Positions 961 to 16,450 of a stretch of 64,000 nt of DNA are shown here, piece by piece. Source of the DNA: Phyllobacterium bourgognense (GTDB lineage: Bacteria > Pseudomonadota > Alphaproteobacteria > Rhizobiales > Rhizobiaceae); NCBI RefSeq assembly GCF_003337575.1, contig NZ_QPJM01000002.1:186001-250000 (forward strand). The letters are read 5' to 3'. The first letter of the stretch is position 1. Every line of letters begins with the position of its first letter. The position numbers and the translations under genes are program-made. The notes beneath the pieces are model-generated. The model was given only the letters and a program-made list of their open reading frames with translations, searched no databases and was not told the DNA's origin.

Positions 961-1659
961 TCAAGCTCCCGAAAGCTGATTGTGTTTGCGTTTCATGTAG
1001 GCCTTGGCTGTCTCAACAGCAACCGCCGCATCGCGGCAATAGGCGTCCGCGCCGACGGCTTTGCCGAACTCTTCGTTGAGAGGTGCACCACCCACGAGCA
1101 CGATATAGTCGTCGCGGATGCCCTTTTCCTTCATCGTGTCGATAACGACTTTCATGTAGGGCATGGTGGTCGTGAGCAGTGCCGACATGCCAAGAATGTC
1201 GGGCTGATGTTCTTCTATTGCCGCCAGATACTTTTCGACCGGATTGTTGATACCAAGGTCGATGACATCGAAGCCAGCACCTTCCATCATCATACCGACC
1301 AGATTTTTGCCGATGTCATGAATGTCACCTTTGACGGTCCCGATGACGAGCTTGCCCTGCTTCGGTGCCCCGGTTGCAGCAAGGAGAGGGCGCAAGATGA
1401 ACATGCCGGCCTTCATCGCGTTGGCTGAGAGCAGTACTTCAGGTACGAAGAGAATGCCGTCCCGGAAGTCTTCGCCAACGATGCGCATGCCCTCGACCAA
1501 AGCTTCGGTCAGAACCTTGTAGGGCGCCCAACCGCGTTCAAGCAGAATATTGGTGCCTTCCTCGATTTCTTCCTTCAGGCCGTCATAAAGATCGTCATGC
1601 ATTTGCTCGACGAGTTCATCGTCAGAAAGCTCCGAAAGAATGATTTCATCATCGGCCAT
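961..1659 (-). CDS. Methyltransferase cognate corrinoid protein (MtbC/MttC/MtgC type)
   Basis: This is a 232-residue stand-alone cobalamin carrier. Residues 1-90 form the helical cap domain and 100-215 the B12-binding Rossmann domain. The lower-ligand motif D112-x-H114-x-x-G117 (GDIHDIGKN), the S159-x-L161 motif and the 'VGGAPL' loop near 190 are all present, as in the carriers of methylamine and betaine methyltransferases and in MetH. In such systems the bound Co(I) takes a methyl group from an MttB-type enzyme and passes it to an acceptor. The N-terminus is very acidic (15 Asp/Glu in 34 residues). The start at 1659 is chosen for its AGGAAG site 7 bases upstream; an upstream in-frame ATG at 1677 lacks one. 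It diverges from the MttB gene at 2019. Confidence 0.9.
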   Translation of the reverse strand: MADDEIILSELSDDELVEQMHDDLYDGLKEEIEEGTNILLERGWAPYKVLTEALVEGMRIVGEDFRDGILFVPEVLLSANAMKAGMFILRPLLAATGAPKQGKLVIGTVKGDIHDIGKNLVGMMMEGAGFDVIDLGINNPVEKYLAAIEEHQPDILGMSALLTTTMPYMKVVIDTMKEKGIRDDYIVLVGGAPLNEEFGKAVGADAYCRDAAVAVETAKAYMKRKHNQLSGA

Positions 1660-1824
1660 TTTTATGCTTCCTTTCAAGCGTTATGCAATGTCACTAACAT
1701 AACTGGTGTTTCTTTAACATATCGGGCAAGTTGCTGAAAACGCATCGCTTAAATGCGACCTAGTAAATGACGAAAACGACCGGCTAGTGGTCCGATTCTA
1801 ACATTCGCTAGCAATCTCAAAGTC

Positions 1825-1902
1825 CTAGTGGAACTTTTGGATTTGACTTTGGCTTCAGAAGCTGATGGCCAAGGCGTGCGAATGTCAAATCCGCTTCACT
1901 AG
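1825..1902. repeat. Nested inverted repeat in the corrinoid protein/MttB intergenic region
   Basis: The 359-base gap between the divergent genes holds a large imperfect hairpin. Outer arms CTAGTG (1825-1830) and CACTAG (1897-1902), middle arms GGATTTGAC (1839-1847) and GTCAAATCC (1884-1892), and inner arms TTGGC/GCCAA are all in register. It could be a small dispersed palindromic element, a folded leader or a regulatory site. No coding sequence is seen in the gap; the rest should hold the divergent promoters. Confidence 0.55.
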
Positions 1903-2018
1903 TTGTCTCCGATGCGCCACCCGGTGCCGCACACGGAAACGCTCTTGCCGGTGTCGCGTTTAGATTCGGACCTGCTCAAGAAGAAGTCTGCGCTTGTGAA
2001 GCGCTGAGGAGATAGAAA

Positions 2019-3605
2019 ATGGTTGAGGAAACGTCAGTCGATGCACCTGCAGAAGCGGAAACAGGCAGTGGGCGTCGTGGCCGCGGCGCAGGCGCTGGTG
2101 CCGCTGCACGTCGTGCTGCGCGTTCGGGTGGCGGTCCTGGCAAGTCGCTGACCTATATTACGCGCAAGATACGTACCTTCGAAGTGTTGGACGAAGAAGG
2201 TTTGGCGATAATCGAGGCGAACGCCGATACGGTGCTGGAGGAGATCGGCATCGAGTTCCGCGATGATGCGGAAGCGCTCGCACTGTGGAAAGAAGCCGGT
2301 GCCGACGTCAGAGGCGAGCGGGTGCATTTTCCCAAGGGTTTGCCGCGTTCTCTGCTGAAGACTGCTCCGCCGATCTACACGCAGCATGCGCGAAATCCGG
2401 AACGCTCCGTCCAGATTGGCGGCGATGCTACCGTTTTTGCACCGGTCTATGGGCCGCCTTTCGTTCGCGATCTCGAGGGCGTTCGCCGCTACGCGACGAT
2501 CGAAGACTTCAATAATTTCGTCAAGCTGGCTTATATGGCGCCGTCAATTCATCATTCGGGCGGTACGGTTTGCGAACCTGTCGATGTGCCGGTCAACAAA
2601 CGCCATCTCGATATGGTGTATGCGCACATCAAATATTCCGACAAGCCTTTCATGGGATCTGTCACCGCACCCGAACGTGCTGAAGATACGATTTCCATGT
2701 GCAAGTTGGTGTTCGGCGAGGACTATCTCGACCAGAACACCGTTTTGACGAGCCTGATCAATGCAAATTCTCCCATGGTATTCGATGAAACCATGCTGGG
2801 TGCGTTGAAGGTCTATGCACGCAACAATCAGGCTTGCATCGTCACGCCGTTCATTCTTGCCGGCGCCATGAGCCCGGTTACGGTGGCAGGTACGCTCACC
2901 CAAGTCCTGGCCGAGGTTCTTGCAGGCGCGTCTTTTACCCAATTGATCCGGCCCGGCGCCCCTGTGATTTTCGGCACGTTCGCGTCGTCGATCTCCATGC
3001 AATCAGGTGCGCCGACCTTTGGTACGCCCGAACCATCATTGGTTTCCTATGGTGCTGCGCAACTGGCACGCCGCTGCGGATTGCCTTTCCGCACCGGTGG
3101 TTCGCTCTGTGCTTCCAAGGTTTCCGATGCTCAGGCAGCTTATGAGAGCGCGAATACATTGAATTCGACGCTTCTTGCGGGCACGAATTTCGTGCTGCAT
3201 GGGGCGGGCTGGCTCGAAGGCGGTCTGGTATCTTCCTATGAAAAATTCATGATGGATATCGATCAGCTCGGCATGGCCCAGAAGATCGCCCAAGGCGTCG
3301 ACCTCTCCGAGAACGGTCAAGCGATGGATGCTATCCGGCAAGTTGGTCCCGGCAGCCACTATCTTGGTTGCGACCACACGCAGGCGAACTTCCAAACCGC
3401 ATTCTATCGTTCGAATATTGCAGATAACAATTCGTACGAGCAATGGCTGGCGGAAGGCGAAAAGCGGGCGGATCAGCGCGCCAATGAACTTGCTCGCCGT
3501 TGGCTGGAAACATACGAGGCGCCTTATCTCGATCCGGCCATCGACGAGTCACTCAAGGAGTTCATTGCCAAGAAAAAGGCGTCCATGCCCGACGCATTCA
3601 CGTGA
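2019..3605 (+). CDS. MttB-superfamily corrinoid methyltransferase, non-pyrrolysine (copy 1)
   Basis: The 528-residue protein belongs to the trimethylamine methyltransferase (MttB) superfamily: a TIM-barrel enzyme that moves a methyl from a quaternary or tertiary amine to a corrinoid protein. Family stretches include 'VLEEIGIEF', 'PFILAGAMSPVTVAGTLTQ', 'GTPEPSLVSYGAAQLARR' and 'HGAGWLEGGLVSSYEKFMMD'. The frame is open with no internal TAG, so no pyrrolysine is encoded; such homologues act on substrates such as glycine betaine (MtgB), proline betaine (MtpB) or carnitine (MtcB). Substrate here is inferred from the betaine importer and dimethylglycine dehydrogenase nearby. Residues 17-42 are a Gly/Ala/Arg-rich tail outside the usual fold. 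An AGGAG site precedes the ATG. Confidence 0.9.
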   Translation: MVEETSVDAPAEAETGSGRRGRGAGAGAAARRAARSGGGPGKSLTYITRKIRTFEVLDEEGLAIIEANADTVLEEIGIEFRDDAEALALWKEAGADVRGERVHFPKGLPRSLLKTAPPIYTQHARNPERSVQIGGDATVFAPVYGPPFVRDLEGVRRYATIEDFNNFVKLAYMAPSIHHSGGTVCEPVDVPVNKRHLDMVYAHIKYSDKPFMGSVTAPERAEDTISMCKLVFGEDYLDQNTVLTSLINANSPMVFDETMLGALKVYARNNQACIVTPFILAGAMSPVTVAGTLTQVLAEVLAGASFTQLIRPGAPVIFGTFASSISMQSGAPTFGTPEPSLVSYGAAQLARRCGLPFRTGGSLCASKVSDAQAAYESANTLNSTLLAGTNFVLHGAGWLEGGLVSSYEKFMMDIDQLGMAQKIAQGVDLSENGQAMDAIRQVGPGSHYLGCDHTQANFQTAFYRSNIADNNSYEQWLAEGEKRADQRANELARRWLETYEAPYLDPAIDESLKEFIAKKKASMPDAFT

Positions 3606-3684
3606 AAGAAGCCCGAAGACGGCCGGGCTAAAGTGGCCGATCTGATCCACCAGGAAGTCTGGGCCTCTGCTGTAAAGGGTTCAG

Positions 3685-4377
3685 ATGCGGGGTGACTTTG
3701 CAGAATTGATACCGGATCAAATCGCCGCCGCGCTGGAGCCATATGGTTTGGTCCCGCGCGGCGGTTTTGTTTTCGACAAAGAGAACGCGCCTTCGCCCTT
3801 GATTCGAGGGACCTATTTTCGAAGCGTTGTCTTGGTTGGCCACTTCGGATCGGCCATTTGGCCGCATTTCACGCGGTGGTGGCAGGACCACACGGATTCC
3901 CAGGATCCGCTCGATCAATGGTCCAAGGATGTTCTGACTGCCGTTGCATTGAAATTCAGTGCGATGGCCGTGTTTCCCTCCGACCGGCCTTATCTGCCGT
4001 TTCAACAATGGGCGATGCGCGCTGAGGGACTGCGCCCTTCTCCACTCGGAATACTGATCCATCCACAATACGGGCTTTGGCACGCTTATCGCGGGGCGCT
4101 GCTATTCGATCGCGCGCTCGATTTTGCTAGCGGTAGTCCGCAAAATCATCCCTGCTACGATTGCCAGGACAAGCCATGCCTTTCGTCTTGCCCAGTGAAT
4201 GCTTTTTCCGGTGACGGATACAATGTCGTCCGTTGTCGTTCCCATCTTGCTTCTGGAGAGGGGAACGAGTGCCTGAACGGCGGTTGTTTGGCACGCCGCG
4301 CATGTCCTGTGGGATGCGAGCACGCCTACAATACGCCGCAGATGCGTTTTCATATGAACGCTTTTGCCCGGGGCTGA
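3685..4377 (+). CDS. Double [4Fe-4S] protein, QueG-like; candidate corrinoid reductive activator
   Basis: The C-terminal third of this 230-residue protein has ferredoxin-type cysteines: C157-x2-C160-x4-C165-x3-C169-P, then C184, C196, C201, C207-P and C211, enough for two [4Fe-4S] clusters. The layout resembles the ferredoxin end of epoxyqueuosine reductase QueG, itself a corrinoid protein, but the protein is much shorter than QueG (about 350 residues), so it is unlikely to be QueG. It lies 79 bases after MttB on the same strand. Corrinoid methyltransferase systems need a reductase to restore Co(I) after oxidation (RamA and RACo play this part elsewhere); I infer that role from position and clusters. 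No signal peptide is seen. Confidence 0.7.
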   Translation: MRGDFAELIPDQIAAALEPYGLVPRGGFVFDKENAPSPLIRGTYFRSVVLVGHFGSAIWPHFTRWWQDHTDSQDPLDQWSKDVLTAVALKFSAMAVFPSDRPYLPFQQWAMRAEGLRPSPLGILIHPQYGLWHAYRGALLFDRALDFASGSPQNHPCYDCQDKPCLSSCPVNAFSGDGYNVVRCRSHLASGEGNECLNGGCLARRACPVGCEHAYNTPQMRFHMNAFARG

Positions 4378-4435
4378 CATACTTTCCGCAAAAAAATACA
4401 GAGGCTAATTCAAACTCTTAGGCGGAAACCTCGTA

Positions 4436-4472: not shown

Positions 4473-4514
4473 GCGTAGATATAGCTCATGAAAGATATAA
4501 CCAGGAGAAATTCC

Positions 4515-5120
4515 ATGTACGGTCATTGCAGAAATCACCACAGCTATGGCGGCGATCACTGGTCGCGCGTTGAGGCAATGTCAGGTTCGCAGGAGGGAGG
4601 CGGCCGCTTTGGCGGACGCGGACGCGGCGGTCCGTTCGGGCGGCATCGAGGCGGTCCGTTTGGCGGGCGCGGTCCGCGTATGTTTGATCCAGGTGCACTG
4701 CGCCTTGTCGTTCTCGGCTTAATCGCGGAAGAACCACGTCACGGCTACGACGTCATCAAGGCGCTGGAGGCGAGATTTCAGGGCGCCTATACCCCGAGTG
4801 CCGGCGCGATTTACCCGATGTTGCAAATGATGGAGGAAACCGATCTTGTTACCTCCACCACGACCGGCAACAAGCGGCTCTATACGATCACGGACCAGGG
4901 GCTTGCTTATCTCGATGAGAACCGGGCGGAGCTAGACAAGATCAATGGCCAACTTGACAACGCCTCCGGCGAGATACGTGGTGCCGCTTTGGGCGAGGAG
5001 ATGCATGCATTGAGCTTCGCACTTCGCTCGAAGCTCCGCAGTGGTTCGCTGACGGCTGAGAAGGCCGAGGAGCTGCGCAATATCCTGAAGAGGGTCCGCC
5101 GCGAAATCGAGGACCTCTGA
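4515..5120 (+). CDS. PadR family transcriptional regulator
   Basis: The 201-residue protein has a PadR winged-helix domain at about residues 55-135 ('LRLVVLGLIAEEPRHGYDVI', 'SAGAIYPMLQMMEE', 'LYTITDQGLAYLDENR') and a C-terminal helical region for dimerisation. Residues 1-52 form an unusual leader rich in His, Gly and Arg with repeated 'GGPFG' units; the His and Cys residues at the very start (MYGHCRNHH) could bind a metal, which is speculation. The start at 4515 has an AGGAG site; an upstream ATG at 4488 has none and lies inside the operator repeats. Two palindromes directly upstream suggest self-repression. The target pathway is unknown but probably the neighbouring methyltransferase genes. 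Confidence 0.88.
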   Translation: MYGHCRNHHSYGGDHWSRVEAMSGSQEGGGRFGGRGRGGPFGRHRGGPFGGRGPRMFDPGALRLVVLGLIAEEPRHGYDVIKALEARFQGAYTPSAGAIYPMLQMMEETDLVTSTTTGNKRLYTITDQGLAYLDENRAELDKINGQLDNASGEIRGAALGEEMHALSFALRSKLRSGSLTAEKAEELRNILKRVRREIEDL

Positions 5121-5144
5121 GGTCCAAAAGACTGTGACAAAAAG

Positions 5145-5184: not shown

Positions 5185-6198
5185 CTATCCCCGCCGTCCG
5201 CGGCGTTCCCGCTTTGGCATATCATCCGCGTGAGCTGCGAGTTTGTTGCGCATTGGTCCGATGGTCTCGACGATTGTCTCGACAGAGGGCCGCGCGCCAT
5301 GCGTGTGACTGTCGAGCGCTTTGCGCATTGCTGCCAGATGCTCGAACGATGTGCCACAGCAGCCGCCAATAATTTTCGCGCCGCCATTGATTGCAAGGTG
5401 GGCGTAGTCGGCCATCAGTTCCGGCGTGCCGGAATAGAAGATCTCCGCGCCGCGAAATTCCGGTATGCCGCAGTTGCCTTTGATAACAATCGTTGCGGAA
5501 GGATCGGCTTCACTCATGTCAAGAAGAGAAGCCAAAATATCCGACGCACCAACGCCGCAATTGGCGCCAACGGCAACCGGGCGTTGCGCGAGTCCGTCGA
5601 CCACACCGTGAATGTCCTTCGGCGGTAGACCCATCATGGTCTTGCCGGCGGTATCGAACGATCCGGTATAGACATAAGGTAGGCCCACTTTAACGGCTGC
5701 CTCGGCAGCTGCGCGTATTTCGCCCGGAGCTGACATCGTCTCGATCCAGGCAACGTCGATGCCGCCAGCCTTCAAGCCTTCCAGCTGTTCCGTGAAAGCC
5801 GTCACCGCATCTTCTTCGGTCAAGGCACCCAGCGGCACGAGCAATTCGCCTGTCGGGCCGACGGACCCTGCAACAATGACCTTGCGGTCTGCCTTGTCAG
5901 CAACGCTACGCGCCAGCTCTGCGGCTTTCTTGTTGAGTTCGAAGACACGATCCTGTGCATGATGGAGTTTCAGACGATGGCGTGTGCCACCGAAGGAATT
6001 GGTCAGGATGATGTCGGCTCCAGCATCGACAAAGCCCTGATGTAATGCAATGATTTTCTCGGGCTGCGCTTCATTCCAGAGTTCCGGAGCTTCGCCTGCT
6101 TCAAGCCCGGTAGCAAAAAGATTTGTGCCTGTTGCACCATCAGCCAGCAAAACGCCCTTCTCAGCGATGAGATCAGCAAGTGGGTTTGCAATAGTCAT
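5185..6198 (-). CDS. bmt: Homocysteine S-methyltransferase, betaine-homocysteine methyltransferase-like
   Basis: The 337-residue protein is a homocysteine methyltransferase barrel. Zinc ligands are visible as C214 ('GANCG') and the pair C280-C281 ('GGCCGT'); the N-terminal 'LLADGATGTNL' and 'ILTNSFGGTRHRL' are family motifs. It has no folate or cobalamin domain and matches the first module of MetH in size. A related rhizobial enzyme (Bmt of Sinorhizobium meliloti) links glycine betaine breakdown to methionine synthesis. Here it could take the methyl directly from betaine, or from the corrinoid protein next door. The C-terminus ends in a basic tail (KRERRGRRG). It lies 91 bases after the XRE regulator on the same strand. 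Confidence 0.85.
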   Translation of the reverse strand: MTIANPLADLIAEKGVLLADGATGTNLFATGLEAGEAPELWNEAQPEKIIALHQGFVDAGADIILTNSFGGTRHRLKLHHAQDRVFELNKKAAELARSVADKADRKVIVAGSVGPTGELLVPLGALTEEDAVTAFTEQLEGLKAGGIDVAWIETMSAPGEIRAAAEAAVKVGLPYVYTGSFDTAGKTMMGLPPKDIHGVVDGLAQRPVAVGANCGVGASDILASLLDMSEADPSATIVIKGNCGIPEFRGAEIFYSGTPELMADYAHLAINGGAKIIGGCCGTSFEHLAAMRKALDSHTHGARPSVETIVETIGPMRNKLAAHADDMPKRERRGRRG

Positions 6199-6289: not shown

Positions 6290-7126
6290 TCAACTGACCT
6301 TCAGCGATGAAACGTAACCAGCCACTTCGTGGGCATTGACTTTGGCGACCCGGATCAATCCGTCAAAATGCCGTTGCATGGTCAGCACCGCCTCAGTTGT
6401 GTACAGGACCAGATACATTTCCCCGACAAATATAGCGGCGCGGTATGGGCCAAAAACGGTATAGGGAACAGAGAAACGCTCGCGTCCGTCAAAGAGATAA
6501 AGCCGAAATGACGGATAGAGCTCATCAATCAATTCGGCCATGTGGTCGAGCTGTTCGAGACGGACCTTGCGCGAAAGATCGCTCCAGATGCTGCAACCGG
6601 CGGCAAAATCATTCAGCGTCTGGAAGGGCATACAGACCTCCATGTCGGTGCCCGGCTGGCGATTATAATCAAGCCGGAACGCGGTCTCGCTCAACTGGGT
6701 TGCGGGGTCCCGGTGGACCATGGAGGTCTCGTAAGCAACGACAGCTTGTGTACGCAACAAGTCCGGGATGCGCGCGGGGACGTAGCGGATTTTACTGCCG
6801 GTCGCTTCCGCGTGCCACTTGACGAGGAGCGTGCGTTCGAAGTTATTCGAACCTTCTTCTATTTCCATGCTTGGGCGAAGTTCGCCTGTAATGCCCTCAT
6901 CCTGGCTCAATCCTAAAAGCCAATCGAGCGACACGGCGTGGCGTTCGGCAATGTTGAGCAGAGTCTCAACGCGCGGCAGTCTGGTAGACACGCCCGACAG
7001 CAGTTGTGACAAGGCTGAACGGTCAATACCAACTGATGCAGCAAAGGCTGACTGGTTTTCACCACTCCGGACAAGGAGACTTTTGATGCGCTCCTGGAAT
7101 AGGCGGGAAAGGTCGCGTTTATCCAT
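6290..7126 (-). CDS. XRE-type helix-turn-helix transcriptional regulator
   Basis: Residues 6-65 of this 278-residue protein form a Cro/C1 helix-turn-helix ('NQSAFAASVGIDRSALSQLL', then 'LPRVETLLNIAERHAVSLDWLLG'). The remaining 200 residues match no domain I recognise; the mix of hydrophobic strands suggests a ligand-binding or dimer domain. It is divergent from the desaturase gene and lies upstream of bmt on the same strand, so it may control either. Two starts are possible: the ATG at 7126, used here because it begins just ahead of the HTH, or 7153. Neither has a strong ribosome site. Confidence 0.8.
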   Translation of the reverse strand: MDKRDLSRLFQERIKSLLVRSGENQSAFAASVGIDRSALSQLLSGVSTRLPRVETLLNIAERHAVSLDWLLGLSQDEGITGELRPSMEIEEGSNNFERTLLVKWHAEATGSKIRYVPARIPDLLRTQAVVAYETSMVHRDPATQLSETAFRLDYNRQPGTDMEVCMPFQTLNDFAAGCSIWSDLSRKVRLEQLDHMAELIDELYPSFRLYLFDGRERFSVPYTVFGPYRAAIFVGEMYLVLYTTEAVLTMQRHFDGLIRVAKVNAHEVAGYVSSLKVS

Positions 7127-7232
7127 ATTCGCACCACATTGTTCATAATGCACAACAATTGCGCCATTTGGTGCGCAAAATCAACACTTACTCACAAAAA
7201 TAGCATTGCTGACAGCTCCTGACAATGAGACC

Positions 7233-8279
7233 ATGAAAAACATGGAATCAGAACGACATAACAAAATACCCTCTTCACCATCCCAGCATTCGCGCAAGCG
7301 CACCGGCATTGAATGGCCAACCATTGGCTTGATGACAGCCTGCTACGGGCTTTGGTTTTTCTCCGGTTTTCACGTCTACGACACCATGCCATTGGTTGCT
7401 CTGGCCGCGATGGCCATTTCTGTCGCGTTGCATTCGTCCCTACAGCATGAAGTTCTGCACGGCCACCCAACGCGCAGTGGTCTTGTCAACGAAATCCTGA
7501 TTTCGTTGCCGATTGGTCTCGTTTTCCCTTATCGGCGCTACAAGCATCTTCACCTCAAGCACCATGCGGATGAGCGGCTGACAGACCCCTATGACGATCC
7601 TGAGAGTTATTTCCGCGCCATGGGCGACTGGGAAAAACTGCCTGCATTTGTCAAATCACTCCTCAACTGGAACAACACGTTGAGTGGCCGGATTATTATT
7701 GGCCCGATTCTGATGGCGATTGGCTTTATCATCGCTGAGGTGAAGCTGGTTGCTGGAGGCGACAGGAAGACGCGCACGGCCTGGCTCTTACATTTCGCCG
7801 GGCTATTCCCAATGCTTACAATTGTATGGATGGTTTTCGGCATTCCCCTTTGGATTTACGCGCTGACAGCTGTTTATTGGGGTCTGTCAATCATCTCGAT
7901 CCGCAGTTATTGCGAACACCAATGGTCGGAGCGCCCGGATGGGCGGACGATTATCGTGGAGAAATCGCCTCTCGCTCTCATTTTCCTTAATAACAACCTG
8001 CATTTTGTGCACCATAAACGGCCAACCGCGCCTTGGTATGATCTGCCGGAGCTCTATCGCGAACAGCGAGAGGAATGGCAGCGCATGAATGGTGGTTATG
8101 TCTTCCGCAATTATTTCGAGATTTTGCGTGCATATGCATTCCGCAAAAAACAGGAAGTCGTTCACCCCGTTCTTCGTCGTGAGCCGGCTCCAGGGCGGGC
8201 CTTCCGGCCACGCCGCCATGGCATCAGTCTGCAGGGCGGCTCAACAATGCCTATTCCCGCCGAGCCGCCGAAAGAGTAA
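7233..8279 (+). CDS. Membrane fatty acid desaturase family protein
   Basis: The protein (348 residues from this start) has the three His boxes of di-iron membrane desaturases/hydroxylases: H72-x3-H76, H105-x-H107-x2-H110-H111 and H257-x2-H260-H261. Hydrophobic segments lie at about 30-70, 85-100, 150-175 and 185-225. Substrate cannot be told from sequence: members act on fatty acyl chains but also on other lipophilic compounds. It is followed after 9 bases by the PhnD-like gene and diverges from the XRE regulator. Start is uncertain: ATG at 7233 or 7242, neither with a clear ribosome site. Confidence 0.82.
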   Translation: MKNMESERHNKIPSSPSQHSRKRTGIEWPTIGLMTACYGLWFFSGFHVYDTMPLVALAAMAISVALHSSLQHEVLHGHPTRSGLVNEILISLPIGLVFPYRRYKHLHLKHHADERLTDPYDDPESYFRAMGDWEKLPAFVKSLLNWNNTLSGRIIIGPILMAIGFIIAEVKLVAGGDRKTRTAWLLHFAGLFPMLTIVWMVFGIPLWIYALTAVYWGLSIISIRSYCEHQWSERPDGRTIIVEKSPLALIFLNNNLHFVHHKRPTAPWYDLPELYREQREEWQRMNGGYVFRNYFEILRAYAFRKKQEVVHPVLRREPAPGRAFRPRRHGISLQGGSTMPIPAEPPKE

Positions 8280-8288
8280 ACAAGCTCT

Positions 8289-9056
8289 ATGACTCTGGTG
8301 GCGGCTTTGCCGATGTATGACTGGCCGGAACGGCGCGCAGAAGTTGACGCGCAGTGGGCGGCCTTGCGTGACACACTACGATCGAACGGCTTTGATGCAC
8401 CGGAATTCCTTACGCGCCGCAATGCTGATCTGCCGGCGGTTCCTGGCGGCGTAAAAGATAAGACTGGCAATGTCATCGCGCCAGATCCAGCCGTACTTCC
8501 ACCCGACGAGTTAGATCGGCAGACGCTGTGGTGTCATCCTGGTTTGCTCTTTGCCCAAGCTTGCTGGGGCCCCCTCGAATTGGGTCTTCAAGCTTATGTC
8601 CATGTTGTCGGGCAGGATGATTACTCAGGCGTTGATGGTGGAAATGGTGAACTTTATTCAAGTGCACTGGTTATGCGGCGAGGCGAGGGGATGCCCGTCA
8701 AAGCGCCCCCCGGCGAAGAGGCCAGGTTACCTCTGGAAATAATGCGGCAGAAACGGCTCGCGTTCAATAGTCACGACTCCATGTCCGGCTATCTCACTCT
8801 TCAGCGGGACCTCGAAGCCCAGGGAGAGACGCTGGACCTGTTTATTAGTCATACGGAGACCGGCGGGCATCGCCATTCCGTTGAAGCTGTTGCGGCTGGA
8901 CGGGCAGACGTCGCTGCTATCGATTGCAAATCCTGGGAACTGGCGCAGCGTTATGATGAAGCCGCCAGCGCCTTGGTCGTCGTCGGCTGGACGGGGAAGC
9001 GCAAAGGCTTGCCCTTTATCTCGGCCTTTGAGTTACCCGCGCATCTTTTCGCCTGA
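8289..9056 (+). CDS. PhnD-like phosphate/phosphonate-binding protein without signal peptide
   Basis: The 255-residue protein resembles the periplasmic phosphonate-binding (PhnD, type 2 periplasmic) fold: 'AALPMYDWPE' at the start, 'GGNGELYSSALVMRRGEG' and 'RLAFNSHDSMSGYLTL' in the middle, 'VAAGRADVAAIDCKSWEL' near the end. It lacks any signal peptide, so it should stay in the cytoplasm, and there is no permease or ATPase beside it. It probably binds a small anion or zwitterion as a sensor or carrier rather than in transport; that is inference. It is coupled to the desaturase gene, and its 3' end overlaps the convergent dehydrogenase gene by 24 bases. Confidence 0.75.
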   Translation: MTLVAALPMYDWPERRAEVDAQWAALRDTLRSNGFDAPEFLTRRNADLPAVPGGVKDKTGNVIAPDPAVLPPDELDRQTLWCHPGLLFAQACWGPLELGLQAYVHVVGQDDYSGVDGGNGELYSSALVMRRGEGMPVKAPPGEEARLPLEIMRQKRLAFNSHDSMSGYLTLQRDLEAQGETLDLFISHTETGGHRHSVEAVAAGRADVAAIDCKSWELAQRYDEAASALVVVGWTGKRKGLPFISAFELPAHLFA

Positions 9057-11609
9057 CGGGTCGAACGGCGGCTCCAGGTTTATCCGGGCGGCGCGGCGAA
9101 CGCCGAGAATTTCCACCTCGAACAGGCCCTGTCGTTCGCTTCTGGCGAGTTCTGCCGGCACGTAGCCTTGAGCCATCGATTGGCCGACATAATGAGCATA
9201 ACCGCCGGATGTGACCCAGCCAACAACGCGCCATTCGCCTTGCACGGCTCCCTTGTCGCCCTCATGGGAGACAATTTCACCAGTTGCGTCGAAGCGTGGC
9301 GCGCCGACACCATGACCTGCCTGAACCGTCCCGTAATCCTTCGAGGTTTTCGCCCAGATCGGTTCGTCCCCCATGACATCGGCAGCACCCTCGCCATGCG
9401 GCACGTCGATCAGGAAGGAGACGCGGCGCAGCTTCGTGCTGGTTCCGGCATCAAACTCAGCCTTCTCCTTGGCTGCCAATTCCCGACCGATAAACTCATT
9501 CTTCGAAAGCTTGATGAAGCGGTCCATTGAACCTTCATACGGACCGTAGATTGGACGCAATTCGCGGAACCACGTGGGGAAATTTTTCTCCAGCCGCATG
9601 GCGAGCAATGCGCGCATGCCGAAATCAACGATGTTGTATTCGGCGCCTGCGTCCTTGATCGCCTTGTACACCAGGCGCTGGTAAGCGGGCTCCATCCAGA
9701 TCTCATAGCCGAGGTCGCCAGTGTAGGAGATGCGATTGACCTTGCACGGTGCTCCACCGACAGCCATCTCGCGGAAATCCATGAAGCGGAAAGCCGCGTT
9801 TGAAACGTCCTCGTCGACGAGTTTTGCAAGGAGATCGCGTGCTCTGGGACCGGCAATCGCCAGCCCCACCAACGTCTGATCGAAGCGGTGGATTCGCACC
9901 GAGCCGTCCCTCGGCTGCTGCTTCTGGAACCAGCGCATGTGATACCGCTGCGCGGCGGACGATCCCCAGATCAGGAACCGGTCGTCTGCTGCCTTGGCGA
10001 TGGTGAAGTCGCCGATGAGTTTGCCTTCTTCGTTCAGCATGGGAGTGAGGACCAGACGTCCAGTCTTCGGCATGGTGTTGGTCATCAGATGCGACAGAAA
10101 AGCCTCGGCACCAGCGCCCGTCACTTCATATTTGGCGAAATTGGCGATTTCGGTGACGCCGACAGTTGTCCGTGTTGCCCGCACTTCGTTGCCGACATGC
10201 TCGAAGTCGTTCGAGCGATGATAGGAGACGATATCGCGGGCTTCCGTGCCTTTGGGGGCGAACCATAGCGGAGTTTCGAGGCCCCAGGAATCGCCCATGA
10301 CTGCATTCTGTGCGACCATTGTGTCGTAGAGCGGCGTCGTCTGCTGAGGACGCGCAGCGGGCAGCTCTTCGTTGGGGAAGCGGATGGAAAAGCGGCGCGA
10401 ATAGTTCTCGCGCACCTTGGCATTGGTGTAGCGCAGGGTCGCCCATTCGCCGAAGCGGGCGACGTCCATGCCCCAGACGTCGAAGCCAGGCTCGCCATGC
10501 ACCATCCAGTTGGAAAGAGCGAGGCCAACGCCCCCGCCTTGGCTGAAACCAGCCATGACGGCACAGGCTGTCCAGTAATTGGTGAGACCAGGAACCGGTC
10601 CGACAAGCGGGTTGCCGTCCGGCGCGAACGTAAAGGGGCCATTGATGATCTGCTTGATGCCGGCCTTTTCGATACCCGGAAAATGCTTGAAACCCACTTC
10701 GAGTGAAGGAGCAATGCGGTCAATATCTGGCGCCAGCAGTTCGTGGCCGAAGTCCCATGGCGTGTTCACAGGCGACCATGGCTTTGCCGCCTTTTCATAG
10801 GTGCCGAGCAGAATGCCGTTACGCTCTTGACGGGTATAGATCTCGCCCTTGAAATCCATGACACCGATGAGTTCGCGTCCAGTGGATTTGTTGAACTCCA
10901 TGACTTCGGGAACGTCTTCGGTAAGGAGATACATGTGCTCCATGGCAAGGACTGGCAGTTCCAGACCGACCATGCGGCCGACTTCGCGGGCCCATAGACC
11001 GCCGCAATTGACGACATGTTCGGCCTTTACTGTGCCTTGTTCCGTGACAACATTCCAGGTGCCATCAGTCTCCTGGGTCAATTCAACGACGCGGTTGCGG
11101 AGTGTAATTTCCGCGCCAAGCTTGCGCGCCGCCTTGGCGTAGGCATGAGTCGTGCCCGATGGGTCGAGGTGACCTTCGACCGGGTCCCACATGGCGCCGA
11201 CGAAGTTGGTCTCGTCCATCAGCGGGAACATCGCCTTGGCTTCAGATGGCGTGATCAGTTCTGTATCCATGCCGAGATAGCGGCCACGCGCATGCGCGAG
11301 ACGCAGGAAATCCATGCGCTCCTGGCTGTCGGCCATCATCACGCCACCTGTCAGATGCAGGCCGCATGACTGCTCCGAGAGTTCCTCGATCTCCTTGTAG
11401 AGGCTGACCGTATAGGCCTGCAGTTTGGCAACGTTTGGATCGCCGTTGAGCGTATGGAAACCTCCGGCAGCATGCCAGGATGAACCGGACGTGAGCTCCG
11501 ATCGCTCGATCAGCATCACGTCTTTCCAGCCGGCGCGTGCAAGGTGATAGAGCACAGAGCATCCAACGACACCGCCTCCTATGACAACTGCTTTAACGTG
11601 CGATTTCAT
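9033..11609 (-). CDS. Dimethylglycine/sarcosine dehydrogenase-like FAD enzyme with GcvT domain
   Basis: The 858-residue protein has the two-part layout of dimethylglycine and sarcosine dehydrogenases. Residues 1-390 are a DAO-type FAD domain with the dinucleotide motif 'VVIGGGVVGCSVLYHL' and 'SSWHAAGG', where the His binds FAD covalently in relatives. Residues about 430-850 are an aminomethyltransferase (GcvT) domain expected to pass the methyl as methylene-tetrahydrofolate. It acts on N-methylated glycines, the products left after betaine has lost a methyl. It follows the second MttB gene by 59 bases on the same strand. Dimethylglycine is preferred over sarcosine only because of that context. 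Confidence 0.85.
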   Translation of the reverse strand: MKSHVKAVVIGGGVVGCSVLYHLARAGWKDVMLIERSELTSGSSWHAAGGFHTLNGDPNVAKLQAYTVSLYKEIEELSEQSCGLHLTGGVMMADSQERMDFLRLAHARGRYLGMDTELITPSEAKAMFPLMDETNFVGAMWDPVEGHLDPSGTTHAYAKAARKLGAEITLRNRVVELTQETDGTWNVVTEQGTVKAEHVVNCGGLWAREVGRMVGLELPVLAMEHMYLLTEDVPEVMEFNKSTGRELIGVMDFKGEIYTRQERNGILLGTYEKAAKPWSPVNTPWDFGHELLAPDIDRIAPSLEVGFKHFPGIEKAGIKQIINGPFTFAPDGNPLVGPVPGLTNYWTACAVMAGFSQGGGVGLALSNWMVHGEPGFDVWGMDVARFGEWATLRYTNAKVRENYSRRFSIRFPNEELPAARPQQTTPLYDTMVAQNAVMGDSWGLETPLWFAPKGTEARDIVSYHRSNDFEHVGNEVRATRTTVGVTEIANFAKYEVTGAGAEAFLSHLMTNTMPKTGRLVLTPMLNEEGKLIGDFTIAKAADDRFLIWGSSAAQRYHMRWFQKQQPRDGSVRIHRFDQTLVGLAIAGPRARDLLAKLVDEDVSNAAFRFMDFREMAVGGAPCKVNRISYTGDLGYEIWMEPAYQRLVYKAIKDAGAEYNIVDFGMRALLAMRLEKNFPTWFRELRPIYGPYEGSMDRFIKLSKNEFIGRELAAKEKAEFDAGTSTKLRRVSFLIDVPHGEGAADVMGDEPIWAKTSKDYGTVQAGHGVGAPRFDATGEIVSHEGDKGAVQGEWRVVGWVTSGGYAHYVGQSMAQGYVPAELARSERQGLFEVEILGVRRAARINLEPPFDPSGEKMRG

Positions 11610-11668: not shown

Positions 11669-13249
11669 TCAGAAATCAGTGGGAGCACCACCCTCGGCCT
11701 TGCGCTTTGCAACGAAGGCATTGATTTCGTCTTCGATTGCTGGGTTGATCGCTGGTTTCACGTAAGTTGCCAATCGTTCTTTCCAGACTCGATTGGCTCG
11801 CTCGATCGCCGTTGGTGAACCGGCTTCTTGCCAGCTCTCGTAGTTGCGCCAGTCGGAAATGATCGGCGCATAGAAGGCATTCTTGTAGCGAGACTGGGTG
11901 TGGCCAGTGCCAAAGAAATGGCCGCCTGGACCGACATCGCGCATCGCATCGAGGCCTAGTGCATCTTCCGACAGATCAAGCGGCGTCAGGAATTCCGCCA
12001 CCATTTGCAACAGGTCGAAGTCGAGCATCATCTTTTCATAGGAACAGCAAAGCCCACCTTCCAACCAGCCCGCGGAATGCAGCATGAAATTGCCGCCGCC
12101 CTGGATCGCGCCCCAAAGCGAGAACACCGATTCATAGGCAGCCTGGGCATCCACCGTGTTAGCTGCACACACATTGGATGTGCGGTAGGGGATGCCATAA
12201 CGGCGAGCCAACTGACCGCCAACCATTTGGGCTTTCATGTATTCGGGAGTGCCAAAGGCGGGAGCACCCGATTTCATGTCGACATTGGAGGTAAATCCGC
12301 CGTAACCGACGGGCGCGCCCTTCTTGACCATCTGCGTGAAGGAGATACCGGCCAGCGCCTCGGCATTCTGCTGGACCAATGCTCCTGCAATCGTCACCGG
12401 GGCCATGGCGCCCGCGAGGGTGAAGGGCGTGACAATGACGATTTGGCCATTGCCCGACATCTGGATGATGCCCTCCATCATCGGGATATCGAGCTTCAGC
12501 GGCGAATTGGTGTTGATGATCGTATAGCAAGATGCTTCGCTCTGCAGCTGTTCGTGGCTGATGCCACGGGCGAGACGCGCAATTTCTATTCCATCCTGGT
12601 TTCGTTCCTTGCCGAGCGAATAGATGTGAAACGGCTTGTCGGTCAGTGTCGCAAGATCGCGTATGCATTCCAGATGGCGCACCGAGGGGTGAATATCGAT
12701 CGGTTCGACCGGGTAACCGCCTGTCGCATTGATGATATTGTGCATCTGAGCCAGTTTCAAAAAATTGCGGAAATCGGCCTGATTACCCGAACGCCGGCCA
12801 TTGTCCGTGTCAGAGCAATTCGGCGCCGATCCCATTTGGGCAAAGATCAGATTATTGCCGCCAAAACGCACATTATGTGCGGGGTTGCGAGCATGCAGCG
12901 TGAACTCGGATGGCGCGTGGCTGACATATTCAAGGATCATTTCCTTGTTGAAACGAACGCGCATTGTACCAGGAGTGACGTCAGCGCCGGCCTCTTTCAT
13001 GATTTCGCGTGCACCGTCGTGCAGCACGTCCACCCCAATCTCCTGCAGCACTTTAAGCGATGCATCGTGGATCGATTCAAGTTCATCGTCGGAAACGATC
13101 TTTGTCGGTGTAAATGGGATTTTGAGCTGCCGAAACGGCGGCTGATCGAAAGCACCGCTTTCAACGCTACGTGGCCGCGCCCGCCCGCCACGTCTGCCAT
13201 GGTCCCTGGCTGATGCGTTTGCGTCGGTCTCAACTGCAGGTTCACTCAT
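11669..13249 (-). CDS. MttB-superfamily corrinoid methyltransferase, non-pyrrolysine (copy 2)
   Basis: This second MttB homologue has 526 residues. It shares family stretches with copy 1 ('VLQEIGVDV', 'PFTLAGAMAPVTIAGALVQ', 'GTPEYMKAQMVGGQLARR', 'HSAGWLEGGLCCSYEKMML') but is clearly diverged, so the two may take different substrates or form pairs. The reading frame has no amber codon. An Arg-rich stretch (GRRGGRARPR) lies in the N-terminal tail at residues 18-27. It sits between the betaine-type importer and the dimethylglycine dehydrogenase-like gene, all on the same strand, which favours glycine betaine or a related betaine as substrate. The corrinoid partner is presumably the protein at 961. 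Confidence 0.9.
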   Translation of the reverse strand: MSEPAVETDANASARDHGRRGGRARPRSVESGAFDQPPFRQLKIPFTPTKIVSDDELESIHDASLKVLQEIGVDVLHDGAREIMKEAGADVTPGTMRVRFNKEMILEYVSHAPSEFTLHARNPAHNVRFGGNNLIFAQMGSAPNCSDTDNGRRSGNQADFRNFLKLAQMHNIINATGGYPVEPIDIHPSVRHLECIRDLATLTDKPFHIYSLGKERNQDGIEIARLARGISHEQLQSEASCYTIINTNSPLKLDIPMMEGIIQMSGNGQIVIVTPFTLAGAMAPVTIAGALVQQNAEALAGISFTQMVKKGAPVGYGGFTSNVDMKSGAPAFGTPEYMKAQMVGGQLARRYGIPYRTSNVCAANTVDAQAAYESVFSLWGAIQGGGNFMLHSAGWLEGGLCCSYEKMMLDFDLLQMVAEFLTPLDLSEDALGLDAMRDVGPGGHFFGTGHTQSRYKNAFYAPIISDWRNYESWQEAGSPTAIERANRVWKERLATYVKPAINPAIEDEINAFVAKRKAEGGAPTDF

Positions 13250-13278
13250 TGCTTATGCCCTCATTCGCACCTGTCACA

Positions 13279-13340
13279 GGCGATGGTCCACTATCGCCAG
13301 AGCACGGCGCAGGGTGCGCGGCGTGAGCGACGCCGAGCGC
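13279..13340. repeat. Two short hairpins between the importer ATPase and MttB genes
   Basis: An 8-bp hairpin (GGCGATGG with CTATCGCC, one G-U pair, loop TCCA) at 13279-13298 and a GC-rich one around GGCGT/ACGCC at 13316-13340 occupy the 117-base gap. No T-run follows on the minus strand. They may stabilise or process the message rather than end it. Confidence 0.4.
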
Positions 13341-13366
13341 AAGGGAAGCGACACCGACGGCGTTGA

Positions 13367-14440
13367 CTATTCCGCCGCAGCTTTCGATGTCAGATGGCTG
13401 ATAGGTGTGACCATCGCTTGAATCAAATTATTCATGCTGATGACGCCAGTGGGTTTCCCGTTATCATCAATAACCGTTGCATATTGCTGGTTGGCGTCGG
13501 TCATTGTCTTGGCAGCTTCTTCAAGAATTGTGCCGGTTTTGACTGTCACTCCGCCCGTTGCTGACGGCGCGCCGGATTGCGTGGCAATAGTGTCGACCAT
13601 GATAACCCGGCCGCGATTGACCTCTTTCACGAAGCTTGAAATATACTCGTCTGCAGGTTTTAGAACGATATCCTGCCCGGTTCCTTGTTGGACAACTTCA
13701 CCGTCACGAAGGATTGCGATGCGATCGCCCAGGCGCAAAGCCTCGTCGAGATCGTGAGTGATGAAAACGACCGTTTTCTTGATTTCCTTCTGCAGATCGA
13801 GAAGAACCGATTGCATGTCCATGCGAATAAGCGGGTCGAGCGCTGAGAAAGCTTCGTCCATCAGCAGGATAGGTGCGTCGTTGGTCAGGGCGCGAGCGAG
13901 ACCGACACGCTGCTGCATGCCACCGGAAAGCTGGTTGGGATAATGATCCTCAAACCCTTTGAGGCCCACCCGGCCGATCCAGCGCCTAGCCTGCTCCTCC
14001 TGTTTTTCCCGCGACAGGCCCTGTATCTCAAGGCCATAGACGGTGTTATCCAGCACCGTGCGATGGGGCAGCAAAGCAAATTTCTGGAAAACCATCGCCG
14101 TCTTGTGTCGCCGGAATTGACGCAGATCGTTCTGGTTCATCTTGCACACATCGGCGCCATCGATGATGACTTCACCTGCCGTTGGATCAATCAGGCGATT
14201 GATGTGGCGGATCAATGTGGACTTTCCTGAACCTGAGAGCCCCATAACAACTTGGATGCAACCGGCTGGCATATCGATGTTGATGTCGCGCAAGCCAAGA
14301 ACATGTCCATGATCTTCATTGAGTTCGGTCTTTGACATGCCTTTCTTCACCGCCTCGACATAGGCTTGCGGTCTCTGGCCGAAAATCTTGTAGAGATTCT
14401 TGATCTTGATGCCTGCTCCCTGAACCGAACGATCAGCCAT
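13367..14440 (-). CDS. Quaternary-amine (glycine betaine/proline) ABC importer, ATP-binding subunit (ProV-like)
   Basis: The 357-residue protein has an ABC ATPase domain at about residues 8-270: Walker A 'GLSGSGKSTLIRHI', signature 'LSGGMQQRVGLARAL' and Walker B 'ILLMDEAFSALD'. A C-terminal CBS-like region follows ('GTILEEAAKTMTDANQQYATVID'), typical of ProV/OpuAA, where it senses ionic strength. It powers uptake of compatible solutes. The ATG at 14440 is preceded by AGGAGG; it overlaps the end of the permease gene by 8 bases, so the two are coupled. The extended open frame to 14524 has no ribosome site and runs through permease codons. Confidence 0.9.
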   Translation of the reverse strand: MADRSVQGAGIKIKNLYKIFGQRPQAYVEAVKKGMSKTELNEDHGHVLGLRDINIDMPAGCIQVVMGLSGSGKSTLIRHINRLIDPTAGEVIIDGADVCKMNQNDLRQFRRHKTAMVFQKFALLPHRTVLDNTVYGLEIQGLSREKQEEQARRWIGRVGLKGFEDHYPNQLSGGMQQRVGLARALTNDAPILLMDEAFSALDPLIRMDMQSVLLDLQKEIKKTVVFITHDLDEALRLGDRIAILRDGEVVQQGTGQDIVLKPADEYISSFVKEVNRGRVIMVDTIATQSGAPSATGGVTVKTGTILEEAAKTMTDANQQYATVIDDNGKPTGVISMNNLIQAMVTPISHLTSKAAAE

Positions 14441-15320
14441 GGACAACCTCCTGGTGCTTCTGAAGACGCTTGCCATAGGCCTGACTAACGCGGTCGAAGA
14501 TGATGGCGATGCCAACGATGGCAAGGCCGTTGAAAAGTCCGAGCGAGAAAAACTGGCCGTTCACCGAACGCAGAACGGGCTGTCCAAGTCCTTGGACGCC
14601 TATCATCGATGCGATAACCACCATAGCGAGAGCCATCATGATTGTCTGATTGATACCGGCCATAATTGTCGGAAGGGCGAGCGGGATCTGAACGTTTCTC
14701 AATCGCTGCCAACTCGACGAACCGAATGCGTCAGCCGCCTCCAGGACGTCCTTGTCAACGAGCCTGATACCAAGATTGGTCAGGCGAATCATTGGCGGAA
14801 TAGCGTAAATCACAACGGCGATAAGGCCTGGGACCTTGCCGATGCCAAGCAACATCACAACCGGAATCAAATAGACGAAGCTCGGCATTGTCTGCATGAC
14901 ATCAAGAATGGGATTGACCATTCGCTGGAAACCATCAGAACGCGCCATCACAATGCCAATCGGGATACCAACGACGATGGAAACGACCGTGCCGACGAAG
15001 ATCATGGCAATGGTCTTCATCGCGTCACTCCACATATCGAAATAGCCGATGAGGAGAAGGGTCAGGATGGTACCACCTACGATCTTCCAGTTGCGGCTGG
15101 CTATCCATGCAATGCCGCCAATGAGAACGATCATGACCGGCCACGGCGTCGTCGTCATGAAACGTTCCGCCTGAATGAGAAAATACTGCAGGGGTTGAAA
15201 AAACGATTCAATGATGTCGCCATATTGACGGGTGAACGCCTTGAAACCCTCGTCCATCGTCTTTTTCAGGTTGCGCAGCGTGTCGTCATTCATATTGGGA
15301 AATGAGTAAAACCAATCCAT
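14433..15320 (-). CDS. Quaternary-amine ABC importer, permease subunit (ProW-like)
   Basis: The 295-residue membrane protein has about six hydrophobic segments, including those around residues 55-100, 105-135 and 140-170, and the inner-membrane ABC permease loop near 190 ('EAADAFGSSSWQRLRNVQIPLALP'), where it docks with the ATPase. The N-terminal 50 residues are soluble, as in ProW. It lies between the binding protein gene (128 bases upstream) and the ATPase gene (overlapping). Together the three form a betaine-type importer. Confidence 0.9.
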   Translation of the reverse strand: MDWFYSFPNMNDDTLRNLKKTMDEGFKAFTRQYGDIIESFFQPLQYFLIQAERFMTTTPWPVMIVLIGGIAWIASRNWKIVGGTILTLLLIGYFDMWSDAMKTIAMIFVGTVVSIVVGIPIGIVMARSDGFQRMVNPILDVMQTMPSFVYLIPVVMLLGIGKVPGLIAVVIYAIPPMIRLTNLGIRLVDKDVLEAADAFGSSSWQRLRNVQIPLALPTIMAGINQTIMMALAMVVIASMIGVQGLGQPVLRSVNGQFFSLGLFNGLAIVGIAIIFDRVSQAYGKRLQKHQEVVHG

Positions 15321-15413
15321 TTGTCTGTGCCCCTTCTATAGCCACCCCAAGCGCTACGCTTTTTGAATGGCTGAAGTGGTTGAACGCTGTGACGCTCAAC
15401 CTATCAAGAGTAG

Positions 15414-15442
15414 GATACGGCGAAGCCCTGCTTCGCCGTATC
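15414..15442. repeat. Intra-operon hairpin between binding protein and permease genes
   Basis: A perfect 12-bp stem (GATACGGCGAAG with CTTCGCCGTATC) has a 5-base loop. No T-run follows on the minus strand. Such hairpins after a binding protein gene often protect its message so that more of it is made than of the permease. Confidence 0.6.
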
Positions 15443-15448
15443 TGACAA

Positions 15449-16450
15449 TTATTGTATGGCTGCCTTGATTTTCTCTGCGGCTTCCGGCGAGACCCACTTT
15501 GTCCAAACAGCCTCATTGTTCTTGAGGTAATATTTGGCGCCATCGTCACCCGTAGCTTGGTTGTCGACCATCCAGGCTAGCAGCTTGTTGAATTCTTCAG
15601 TCGAAAGCTGCCGCTTTTTCAGATAATCGAAGGCGGGGCCAGCAGCGTCAGAAAATTTCTTTGTGACAACAGTGTAGATATCAGACTTCGCCCATCCGTT
15701 AGGCTTTGGATCGGGGCAATCGGCAACGACAGTGCAGCGTTTCCATTCGGCTTCGTCAAATGGTACGCCATTGTCGAGCTTGACCATGGGATACTTACCA
15801 AGGATTGCGGTGGGGCCCCAATAGTATCCGAGCCAAGGCTCTTTGCGCTCGTACGCCTTGGCTATTGAGCCATCAAGACCCGCTGCTGAACCTGTATCGA
15901 CAAGCATGAAGCCGTTTTTGTCGCCGCCATAGGCCTTATAGAAGTTGGTGGTCGTGATCTGGCAAGCCCAACCCGAAGGGCAATTATAAACTGCGCCTTT
16001 CTTGGGGTCTTCCGGAGCGGGGAACAATTCCGGGTGCTTCATCGCGTCCGCAATCGTCTTAATCTCCGGGTGCGCATCAGCGAAATATTTAGGGATCCAC
16101 CAGCTTTCCGTGCCGCCTTCGGTAATGGCAGGCGCGGCCAGCACCAGTCTTTCTTCCTTGACAGCCTTCTCAATGAGGTCACGGACAGTATTGAGCCAGC
16201 CCTCCGGTGCTATGTCCGGCTGACCCTTTTCTAACATCGACGTGAAAGTTGGAACCGTGTCGCCAGCCACCAGTTCGGCGTCGCAGCCATAACCTTCTGA
16301 TAGTATGATCTTGTCCAGGTTGGCCAAAGCTTCGGCGGAGGGCCAGTTCATATTGGCGATTGTTACAGTGCCGCATTCTGCAGCCGATGCCGATCCAGCG
16401 TAGCCGAAAAGACCAGCGGCGAGTATAGTTGAAGCGAGTAGCTTCTTCAT
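15449..16450 (-). CDS. Quaternary-amine ABC importer, periplasmic substrate-binding protein (OpuAC family)
   Basis: The 333-residue protein starts with a clear signal peptide (residues 1-23, cut after 'GSASA'). The mature part has OpuAC/ProX family features: 'VTIANMNWPSAEALANLDKI', 'APEGWLNTVRDLIEK', 'GTESWWIPKYF' and 'GWACQITTTNFYKAYGG', with many Trp and Tyr residues suited to an aromatic cage for a quaternary ammonium group. It is the first gene of a leftward run, importer then MttB then dehydrogenase, so it should supply the betaine that these enzymes break down. A GGGAG ribosome site precedes the ATG. Choline, glycine betaine and proline betaine all remain possible ligands. Confidence 0.88.
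   Translation of the reverse strand: MKKLLASTILAAGLFGYAGSASAAECGTVTIANMNWPSAEALANLDKIILSEGYGCDAELVAGDTVPTFTSMLEKGQPDIAPEGWLNTVRDLIEKAVKEERLVLAAPAITEGGTESWWIPKYFADAHPEIKTIADAMKHPELFPAPEDPKKGAVYNCPSGWACQITTTNFYKAYGGDKNGFMLVDTGSAAGLDGSIAKAYERKEPWLGYYWGPTAILGKYPMVKLDNGVPFDEAEWKRCTVVADCPDPKPNGWAKSDIYTVVTKKFSDAAGPAFDYLKKRQLSTEEFNKLLAWMVDNQATGDDGAKYYLKNNEAVWTKWVSPEAAEKIKAAIQ

Follow-up and report, generated by a model that had tools for sequence, protein, structure and literature searches.

How can one vitamin B12 carrier protein serve many methyl donors, two acceptors and a repair enzyme? This sharing, left unexplained in the literature text examined, is raised by a locus in a 64,000-nucleotide stretch (the window; C2:186001-250000) of the Phyllobacterium bourgognense genome (5.6 Mb in 61 contigs). 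The window encodes separate parts of a corrinoid methyl-transfer system, among them two MttB-family methyltransferases (MtgB1 and MtgB2), the carrier MtgC and the homocysteine methyltransferase module MtgE/Bmt, and three further parts (MtgD, MetF2 and the RACo/RamA activase) are encoded just beyond its left edge. The cluster is very probably MtgBCDE, the aerobic corrinoid system for glycine betaine, in its Rhizobiales form; the pathway of this system is known from the genetics of relatives. We found that four protein families of this system share an Arg/Gly-rich tag at one end and that MtgC carries an acidic N-terminal extension; both features are robust. The tags may be shared electrostatic docking handles for MtgC, and we assign a probability of about 0.6 to the whole explanation, pathway and docking together. 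The pathway itself is already described and widespread; the end tag and the carrier extension are new, being undescribed within the open-licence text searched. No description of the tag was found in open-licence PubMed Central text, a scope that leaves out subscription papers and supplements; the text considered of Price 2018 (PMC5764234) mentions no such tag or docking, and the main text of Mausz 2025 (PMC12478193) mentions neither terminal tags nor an acidic extension of the carrier.

An end was scored as tagged when it held at least five Arg in a 15-residue window, and distinct ends were counted, duplicates once. The tag is N-terminal in both MttBs and C-terminal in MtgD, MtgE and RamA; the P. 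bourgognense proteins have 5 (MtgB1), 6 (MtgB2), 6 (MtgD), 5 (MtgE) and 8 (RamA) Arg per 15 residues. Across 80 Rhizobiales loci picked by their MtgC, 237/251 ends reached the threshold (MttB 75/77, MtgD 49/60, MtgE 52/52, RamA 61/62). The remaining 11 MtgD ends read RRGGRAAR or RRGGRAGR, with four Arg, and RRGGR is present in 60/60. The wide set, which joins a class-wide and a phylum-wide draw and includes the control genomes G066, G107 and G006, gave 183/202 tagged ends: MttB 61/64 in the MtgB1 best-hit group and 22/26 in the MtgB2 best-hit group, MtgD 51/55, MtgE 22/26 and RamA 27/31. Its MttB ends come from 30 loci plus 60 chosen stretches, a subset of the MttB places (L328 and L332 were added after the count); the broken MtgD of G062 (L119) and a RamA with extra residues after the tag (L249) were counted as untagged. 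In the phylum draw a match was present in 35/299 genomes, and the only one outside the class, G219, has tags on MtgB, MtgD and RamA and an acidic start on MtgC.

The 120 nearest MtgD homologues listed all end in RRGGRx(A/G/S)R (120/120), located 25-38 residues past the last Trp on a linker of varying length. Moreover, RRGGREARR is found identically in MttB N-ends (L221, L225, L229, L230) and in MtgD C-ends. Common descent can hardly account for a single motif placed at differing ends in four distinct protein families.

The named families served as the N-end control, since wrong frames and free choice of starts inflate the N-end background of all open reading frames (ORFs; 89/382 at threshold) and make it unusable. 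Opposite ends of the tagged proteins seldom reached the threshold (MttB C-ends 3/159, MtgD N-ends 6/115, MtgE N-ends 0/78, RamA N-ends 3/112). Values for other families were 0/33 (C) and 1/31 (N) for MetF2, 0/89 (C) and 0/112 (N) for MtgC, 3/100 (C) and 2/98 (N) for DUF1638 and 1/19 for helix-turn-helix (HTH) regulator N-ends; the highest came from N-ends of the iron-sulfur-type protein (7/71), the ATPase of the ATP-binding cassette (ABC) importer (3/21) and PadR (4/7). Once the tagged proteins were removed from the 55 mechanically called genes of the window (MtgE and MtgB2 by hand from 54 "others"), 1/52 C-ends and 5/52 N-ends of the remaining genes were at threshold.

Could such stretches be compositional noise of GC-rich DNA, or wrongly read frames? 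Loci of at least 50% GC supplied 178/202 of the wide ends, and 23/489 background ORF C-ends are at threshold, a figure that is only an upper bound because wrong-frame ORFs are included. However, in loci below 45% GC every end has the tag (8/8), coded by a mixture of AGA and CGN codons; these ends include all four kinds of protein (MttB, MtgD, MtgE, RamA) of G051, at 32-35% GC; GC drift is thus not the cause. At 45-50% GC the share is 13/16. Wrong frames are contradicted by the C-terminal tags, which share their frame with the conserved domain, and by the solved chain 4yyc, presumably from Sinorhizobium meliloti, which contains the MttB tag. An origin in noise or misreading is therefore highly improbable, and the tag is almost certainly a real, selected feature. 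It should be mentioned that RRGGRxxR was also tried and rejected as a genome-wide word: the CGN-coded pattern gave 8 matches, equal to its reversed control (8), and of these only the MtgD match is in a long frame, whereas seven are in frames of 32-104 amino acids.

The extension of MtgC has a consensus of roughly DLxxLxDxELVxQMxDDLYDGL. Its net charge over 40 residues is -9 to -17 (median -13) in 28/28 MtgC of the wide set and -11 to -15 in 80/80 of the Rhizobiales set. The strict motif D[DE]LY[DE]G[LM] is present in 25/28 and 80/80, respectively, the other three proteins having EDLYDGL. A close MtgC homologue (E <= 4.2e-113) was found in 28/32 searched entries. Among the corrinoid proteins listed as nearest to 1y80, neither this motif nor ELVxQ[MV] occurs (0/120), and the net charge of the first 45 residues is -1 to -8 (median -3). 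The motif is also missing from five further corrinoid proteins of the genomes sampled, whose net charges are -2 to -9. For MtgC, the AlphaFold model (mean predicted local distance difference test score, pLDDT, 55.8) is too poor to interpret.

We propose that the tags, placed on flexible ends of MtgB, MtgD, MtgE and RamA, would act as interchangeable handles by which donor, acceptor and repair enzymes dock at MtgC, so that docking would replace the covalent linkage of MetH. Three observations support this: (i) the tagged proteins are the expected contacts of the carrier, and MetF2, with no expected contact, is untagged; (ii) the acidic extension accompanies tagged systems, the motif occurring in 0/120 of the anaerobe-type carriers listed and the tag in 0/120 of the anaerobe-type MtgB listed; and (iii) in G066 and G107, which have no MttB, the RACo-like and MtgD-like proteins are under the threshold and the corrinoid carriers lack the motif. 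The loci concerned (L329 of G066 and L330 of G107) appear as a separate alphaproteobacterial corrinoid system with no clear tags, no acidic motif and no MttB match.

Several findings weigh against this proposal. Of the wide ends, 19/202 are under the threshold (7 MttB, 4 MtgD, 4 MtgE, 4 RamA). The PadR-type regulator at 4488-5120 is also Arg/Gly-rich at its N-end, where 4/7 of its homologues reach the threshold; DUF1638 has no tag, although action on the carrier is expected of it; and the C-end of the MtgD-like protein of G107 (L269) is basic, though under the threshold. The MttBs of L238, L239/L332 and L328 are distant family members encoded directly beside a private corrinoid protein. Those of L328 and L239/L332 have Arg-rich N-ends (their start codons are uncertain) next to a motif-less carrier, which counts against MtgC as the sole target; of these three private-carrier MttBs only that of L238 is under the threshold. 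Finally, the private carriers of L238 (-9) and L298 (-9) match the least acidic MtgC.

These Arg-rich neighbours of private carriers would also fit tags that bind something else, such as each other's partners, RNA or another polyanion, or that gather the enzymes into a condensate, the acidity of MtgC being incidental. RG-rich stretches are known polyanion binders; as tags are present on RamA as well as on the MttBs, a tag-to-tag contact is electrostatically unexpected and a third party is possible. On the other hand, the tag occurs on the proteins expected to meet the carrier and only rarely on MetF2, DUF1638 or other families counted in the loci, and the acidic extension is absent where tags are absent; we regard a different target as rather unlikely. 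The chance that MtgC is the main target of the tag is about even. A common docking code for aerobic corrinoid systems of Pseudomonadota, with the tag arisen on four unrelated families and matched by the MtgC extension, is put forward tentatively, at a little below even odds.

As to the pathway, family calls in the window and its flank were made by Pfam and NCBIfam profile matches. The preliminary description had proposed a route from betaine over the corrinoid to homocysteine, with no folate methyltransferase of the MtgA type. The latter holds for the window, which has MtgB, MtgC and MtgE together and lacks a PF00809 gene of the MtgD type, and is false for the locus: MtgD (PF00809; NF005719, 397 bits against a cut-off of 259) is encoded at C2:182052-183011, about 3 kb left of the first base of the window, flanked by MetF2 and the RACo/RamA activase, all three on one strand. 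Such an enzyme, encoded elsewhere and required, had been named beforehand as grounds for giving the route up. Gene content thus refutes a pathway with no folate outlet, to which three genomes that keep MtgB, MtgC, MtgD and RamA without MtgE also run counter; we give it hardly any weight. With MtgD and MetF2 just outside the window, the methyl group of betaine is read as passing mainly over MtgB, MtgC and MtgD to folate, and its transfer to homocysteine is at most a side branch.

In the MtgBCDE pathway, the ABC importer would bring betaine in, and MtgB would methylate Co(I) of the carrier MtgC and leave dimethylglycine; MtgB1 is presumed to be a methyltransferase from betaine, or a related quaternary amine, to corrinoid, and the substrates of both MttBs are inferred. 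MtgD would hand the methyl group to tetrahydrofolate for oxidation by MetF2, a side branch via MtgE would yield methionine, and RACo/RamA with DUF1638 would re-reduce spent corrinoid. The genome holds what this scheme asks for: an MttB-family MtgB (PF06253) adjoining the B12 carrier MtgC (961-3605), a pterin-binding MtgD plus MetF2, and MtgE, a RamA-type activase and DUF1638. Support comes from the family matches, from the adjoining MtgD, MetF2 and RACo/RamA, from the gene order kept in named Rhizobiales and from the genetics of Mausz 2025 (PMC12478193) and Price 2018 (PMC5764234).

The genome also has an intact MetH on another contig (1258 amino acids, all five Pfam domains, untagged C-end) and hence a methionine synthase apart from the cluster; a split MetH as its sole one was rejected. 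Three PF02574 proteins are present in the genome (MetH, MtgE and a third paralogue) and two MttB proteins, both inside the window. The name "disassembled MetH" given to the cluster is unlikely to be apt, as aerobic MtgC lies on a branch apart from MetH in the phylogeny shown in the part considered of Mausz 2025 (PMC12478193). The other assignments stood: two MttB-type donors, a cobalamin carrier, a MetH-like homocysteine module with neither B12 nor folate domain (by Pfam and NCBIfam), a betaine importer, a dimethylglycine dehydrogenase-like enzyme and, probably, an aerobic host. A reductase at 3685 found no support: that protein belongs to no Pfam family, and its sole NCBIfam matches are weak (QueG and NapG, about 19 bits). 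It was also rejected as the corrinoid activase, having no RACo or RamA domain (the true activase is at L004:3879-5963); a role as electron donor for corrinoid reactivation is possible.

Co-occurrence of the parts in related genomes, a check proposed in the preliminary description, was seen in other Rhizobiales. The 80 MtgC loci held within reach 77 MtgB1-like MttB, 75 DUF1638, 70 MtgD, 69 iron-sulfur protein, 68 RamA and 53 MtgE matches, mostly in the same order, which is more than chance. Six of the ten loci without MtgD end at a contig edge on that side (L021, L031, L062, L066, L070, L089); of the other four, L047 is uncut and L020, L041 and L052 (Mesorhizobium) are stand-alone mtgC copies with no MtgD or RamA in reach, accompanied by another MttB in L020 and by a dimethylglycine dehydrogenase-like gene in L041 and L052. 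MetF2 adjoining MtgD gave only 9 matches in the 80 loci and is frequent in the wide set.

The class-wide draw comprised 144 genomes, of which 30 (P. bourgognense included) have MtgD at E <= 1.1e-66; as they were selected by MtgD, its constancy is outside the scope of this draw. MtgE (E <= 3.1e-46) is present in 27/30 of them. A MetH-type long frame (at least 892 amino acids) was found in 11/30 by the same search, and MtgE occurs in 19/19 genomes without it and in 8/11 with it (one-sided Fisher test about 0.04, calculated by hand). Two of the three genomes lacking MtgE (G033 and G141) belong to one genus, which leaves about two independent losses. MtgE thus behaves as a methionine-synthase part that is dispensable when MetH is present. 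Its loss while MtgB, MtgC, MtgD and RamA persist points to the folate outlet, rather than homocysteine, as the core of the system. In G027 there are up to 15 MttB matches, some of them fragments, and one MtgC match; many donor enzymes may share one carrier there.

The methyl donor of MtgE is contested, since two published results conflict. In the part considered of Narvaez-Barragan et al. 2025 (PMC12366255), the Bmt of Phaeobacter needs neither B12 nor folate to make methionine in vitro from betaine or dimethylsulfoniopropionate. According to the alignment of Mausz 2025 (PMC12478193), as far as its text was available, MtgE of the S. meliloti type is without the residues that human betaine-homocysteine methyltransferase (BHMT) requires to bind betaine. 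Direct use of betaine by Bmt, which had been set down in advance as grounds against the carrier route, has been described in vitro for the homologue from Phaeobacter. On this ground, and because NCBI names NF005718 betaine--homocysteine S-methyltransferase, MtgE might be a stand-alone, carrier-free enzyme whose place beside mtgBC reflects shared regulation only. By sequence, however, it is nearer to the MetH module (1q7m, E 2.6e-38) than to BHMT (1lt7, 1.1e-12). Its AlphaFold model (mean pLDDT 82.1; below 50 in the last 15 residues, which include the tag) matches Thermotoga MetH chains first, the first BHMT chain being at rank 17. Besides the missing residues, the kind of tag shared with MtgB, MtgD and RamA and the distribution relative to MetH also speak against direct betaine use, which we consider improbable.

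Table 1. Features of the P. bourgognense locus (window positions unless marked C2 or L004).
Feature	Position	Strand	Evidence and remarks
RACo/RamA activase	C2:179879-181963 (L004:3879-5963)		
MetF2	C2:183022-183939 (L004:7022-7939)		
DUF1638 protein	19..645	-	PF07796, 90.7 bits; corrinoid reactivation partner; untagged
MtgC, corrinoid carrier	961..1677	-	PF02607 (B12 cap) + PF02310 (B12-binding); likely ATG start 1659
MtgC acidic N-terminal extension	1567..1659	-	MADDEIILSELSDDELVEQMHDDLYDGLKEE
MtgB1, MttB-family methyltransferase, 528 aa	2019..3605	+	PF06253, 779 bits
MtgB1 N-terminal Arg/Gly/Ala-rich tag	2070..2123	+	GRRGRGAGAGAAARRAAR; 5 Arg per 15 residues
Iron-sulfur-type protein	3685..4377	+	two Cys clusters; no Pfam family
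PadR-type regulator	4488-5120	+	own Arg/Gly-rich N-end
MtgE/Bmt, homocysteine S-methyltransferase module	5185..6198	-	PF02574; NF005718, 556 bits (cut-off 338)
MtgE C-terminal tag	5188..5217	-	PKRERRGRRG
Putative dimethylglycine-dehydrogenase-like FAD/GcvT protein	9033..11609	-	PF01266, PF16350, PF01571, PF08669
MtgB2, second MttB-family methyltransferase	11669..13249	-	PF06253, 661 bits
MtgB2 N-terminal tag	13169..13207	-	RDHGRRGGRARPR; 6 Arg per 15 residues
Glycine-betaine-type ABC importer (ATPase, permease, binding protein)	13367..16450	-	PF00005 + CBS, PF00528, PF04069
CobQ-like gene, likely start 19434	19362..21065	+	PF07685 + PF01656 on 19434-21065

Judged by MtgC, two Phyllobacterium (99% identity) are the closest relatives with a name, and the relatives of MtgB1 with a solved structure are 4yyc, 2qne and 9yce. 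A gene of the 3685-4377 type usually sits between MtgB1 and MtgE, and a relative of it adjoins MtgD in L117. The interval 6290-9056 holds HTH regulator, fatty-acid desaturase-like and phosphonate-binding-like genes, which are kept in only some Rhizobiales loci. Directly downstream, beside the cluster, are cobalamin genes: the CobQ-like gene and, at 24026-27754 on the plus strand, an ORF of 1242 amino acids whose position suggests the cobalt chelatase CobN.

A transferable tag would explain how one B12 carrier serves its many partners. An enzyme that gains the tag, for example an MttB paralogue, would plug its donor into the common carrier and folate outlet, giving a non-covalent, expandable counterpart to the tethered modules of MetH. 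Uncharacterised MttB-type demethylases could then be flagged as carrier clients from sequence alone, and the tag would be relevant to the disputed question of whether the carrier or betaine itself supplies the methyl group to Bmt/MtgE.

The idea of separate corrinoid parts making methionine is already in print (Price 2018, PMC5764234; Mausz 2025, PMC12478193), and the locus can be compared with these systems as far as the available parts of the two texts describe them. Mausz 2025 (PMC12478193) named MtgBCDE; in Ruegeria pomeroyi, mutants in mtgC and in mtgD are auxotrophic for methionine and, even when it is supplied, do not grow on betaine. The Ruegeria and S. meliloti systems have the same MttB-type MtgB, MtgC, pterin-binding MtgD, MtgE, MetF2, RamA and DUF1638. 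In S. meliloti the same mtg set is colocated beside cobalamin genes, as in P. bourgognense, whereas R. pomeroyi differs in having no MetH. Price 2018 (PMC5764234) described in Phaeobacter a methionine synthase that is split and has a RamA-like and a DUF1638 protein as partners, the DUF1638 gene being required for methionine synthesis, and noted as unexplained the presence in S. meliloti of these partners together with an ordinary MetH. The Phaeobacter inhibens system shares with ours the separate homocysteine, pterin and B12 proteins and both partners; it is described for methionine synthesis only, whereas P. bourgognense adds an MttB donor, betaine import and MetH.

The anaerobic MtgABC of Desulfitobacterium likewise comprises an MttB-family betaine:corrinoid methyltransferase, a corrinoid protein and a folate methyltransferase. 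Its type of MtgB is short and untagged (median 475 amino acids and 0/120 tagged among the 120 listed nearest 9yce), unlike the tagged MtgB1 of 528 amino acids, and the acidic motif is found in none of the anaerobe-type corrinoid proteins (0/120 of those listed nearest 1y80). BHMT has the zinc homocysteine methyltransferase fold of MtgE and is further from it, by sequence and by fold, than the MetH module. In MetH, the homocysteine, folate and B12 modules that correspond to MtgE, MtgD and MtgC form one polypeptide, and the MetH of P. bourgognense itself is intact and has an untagged C-end.

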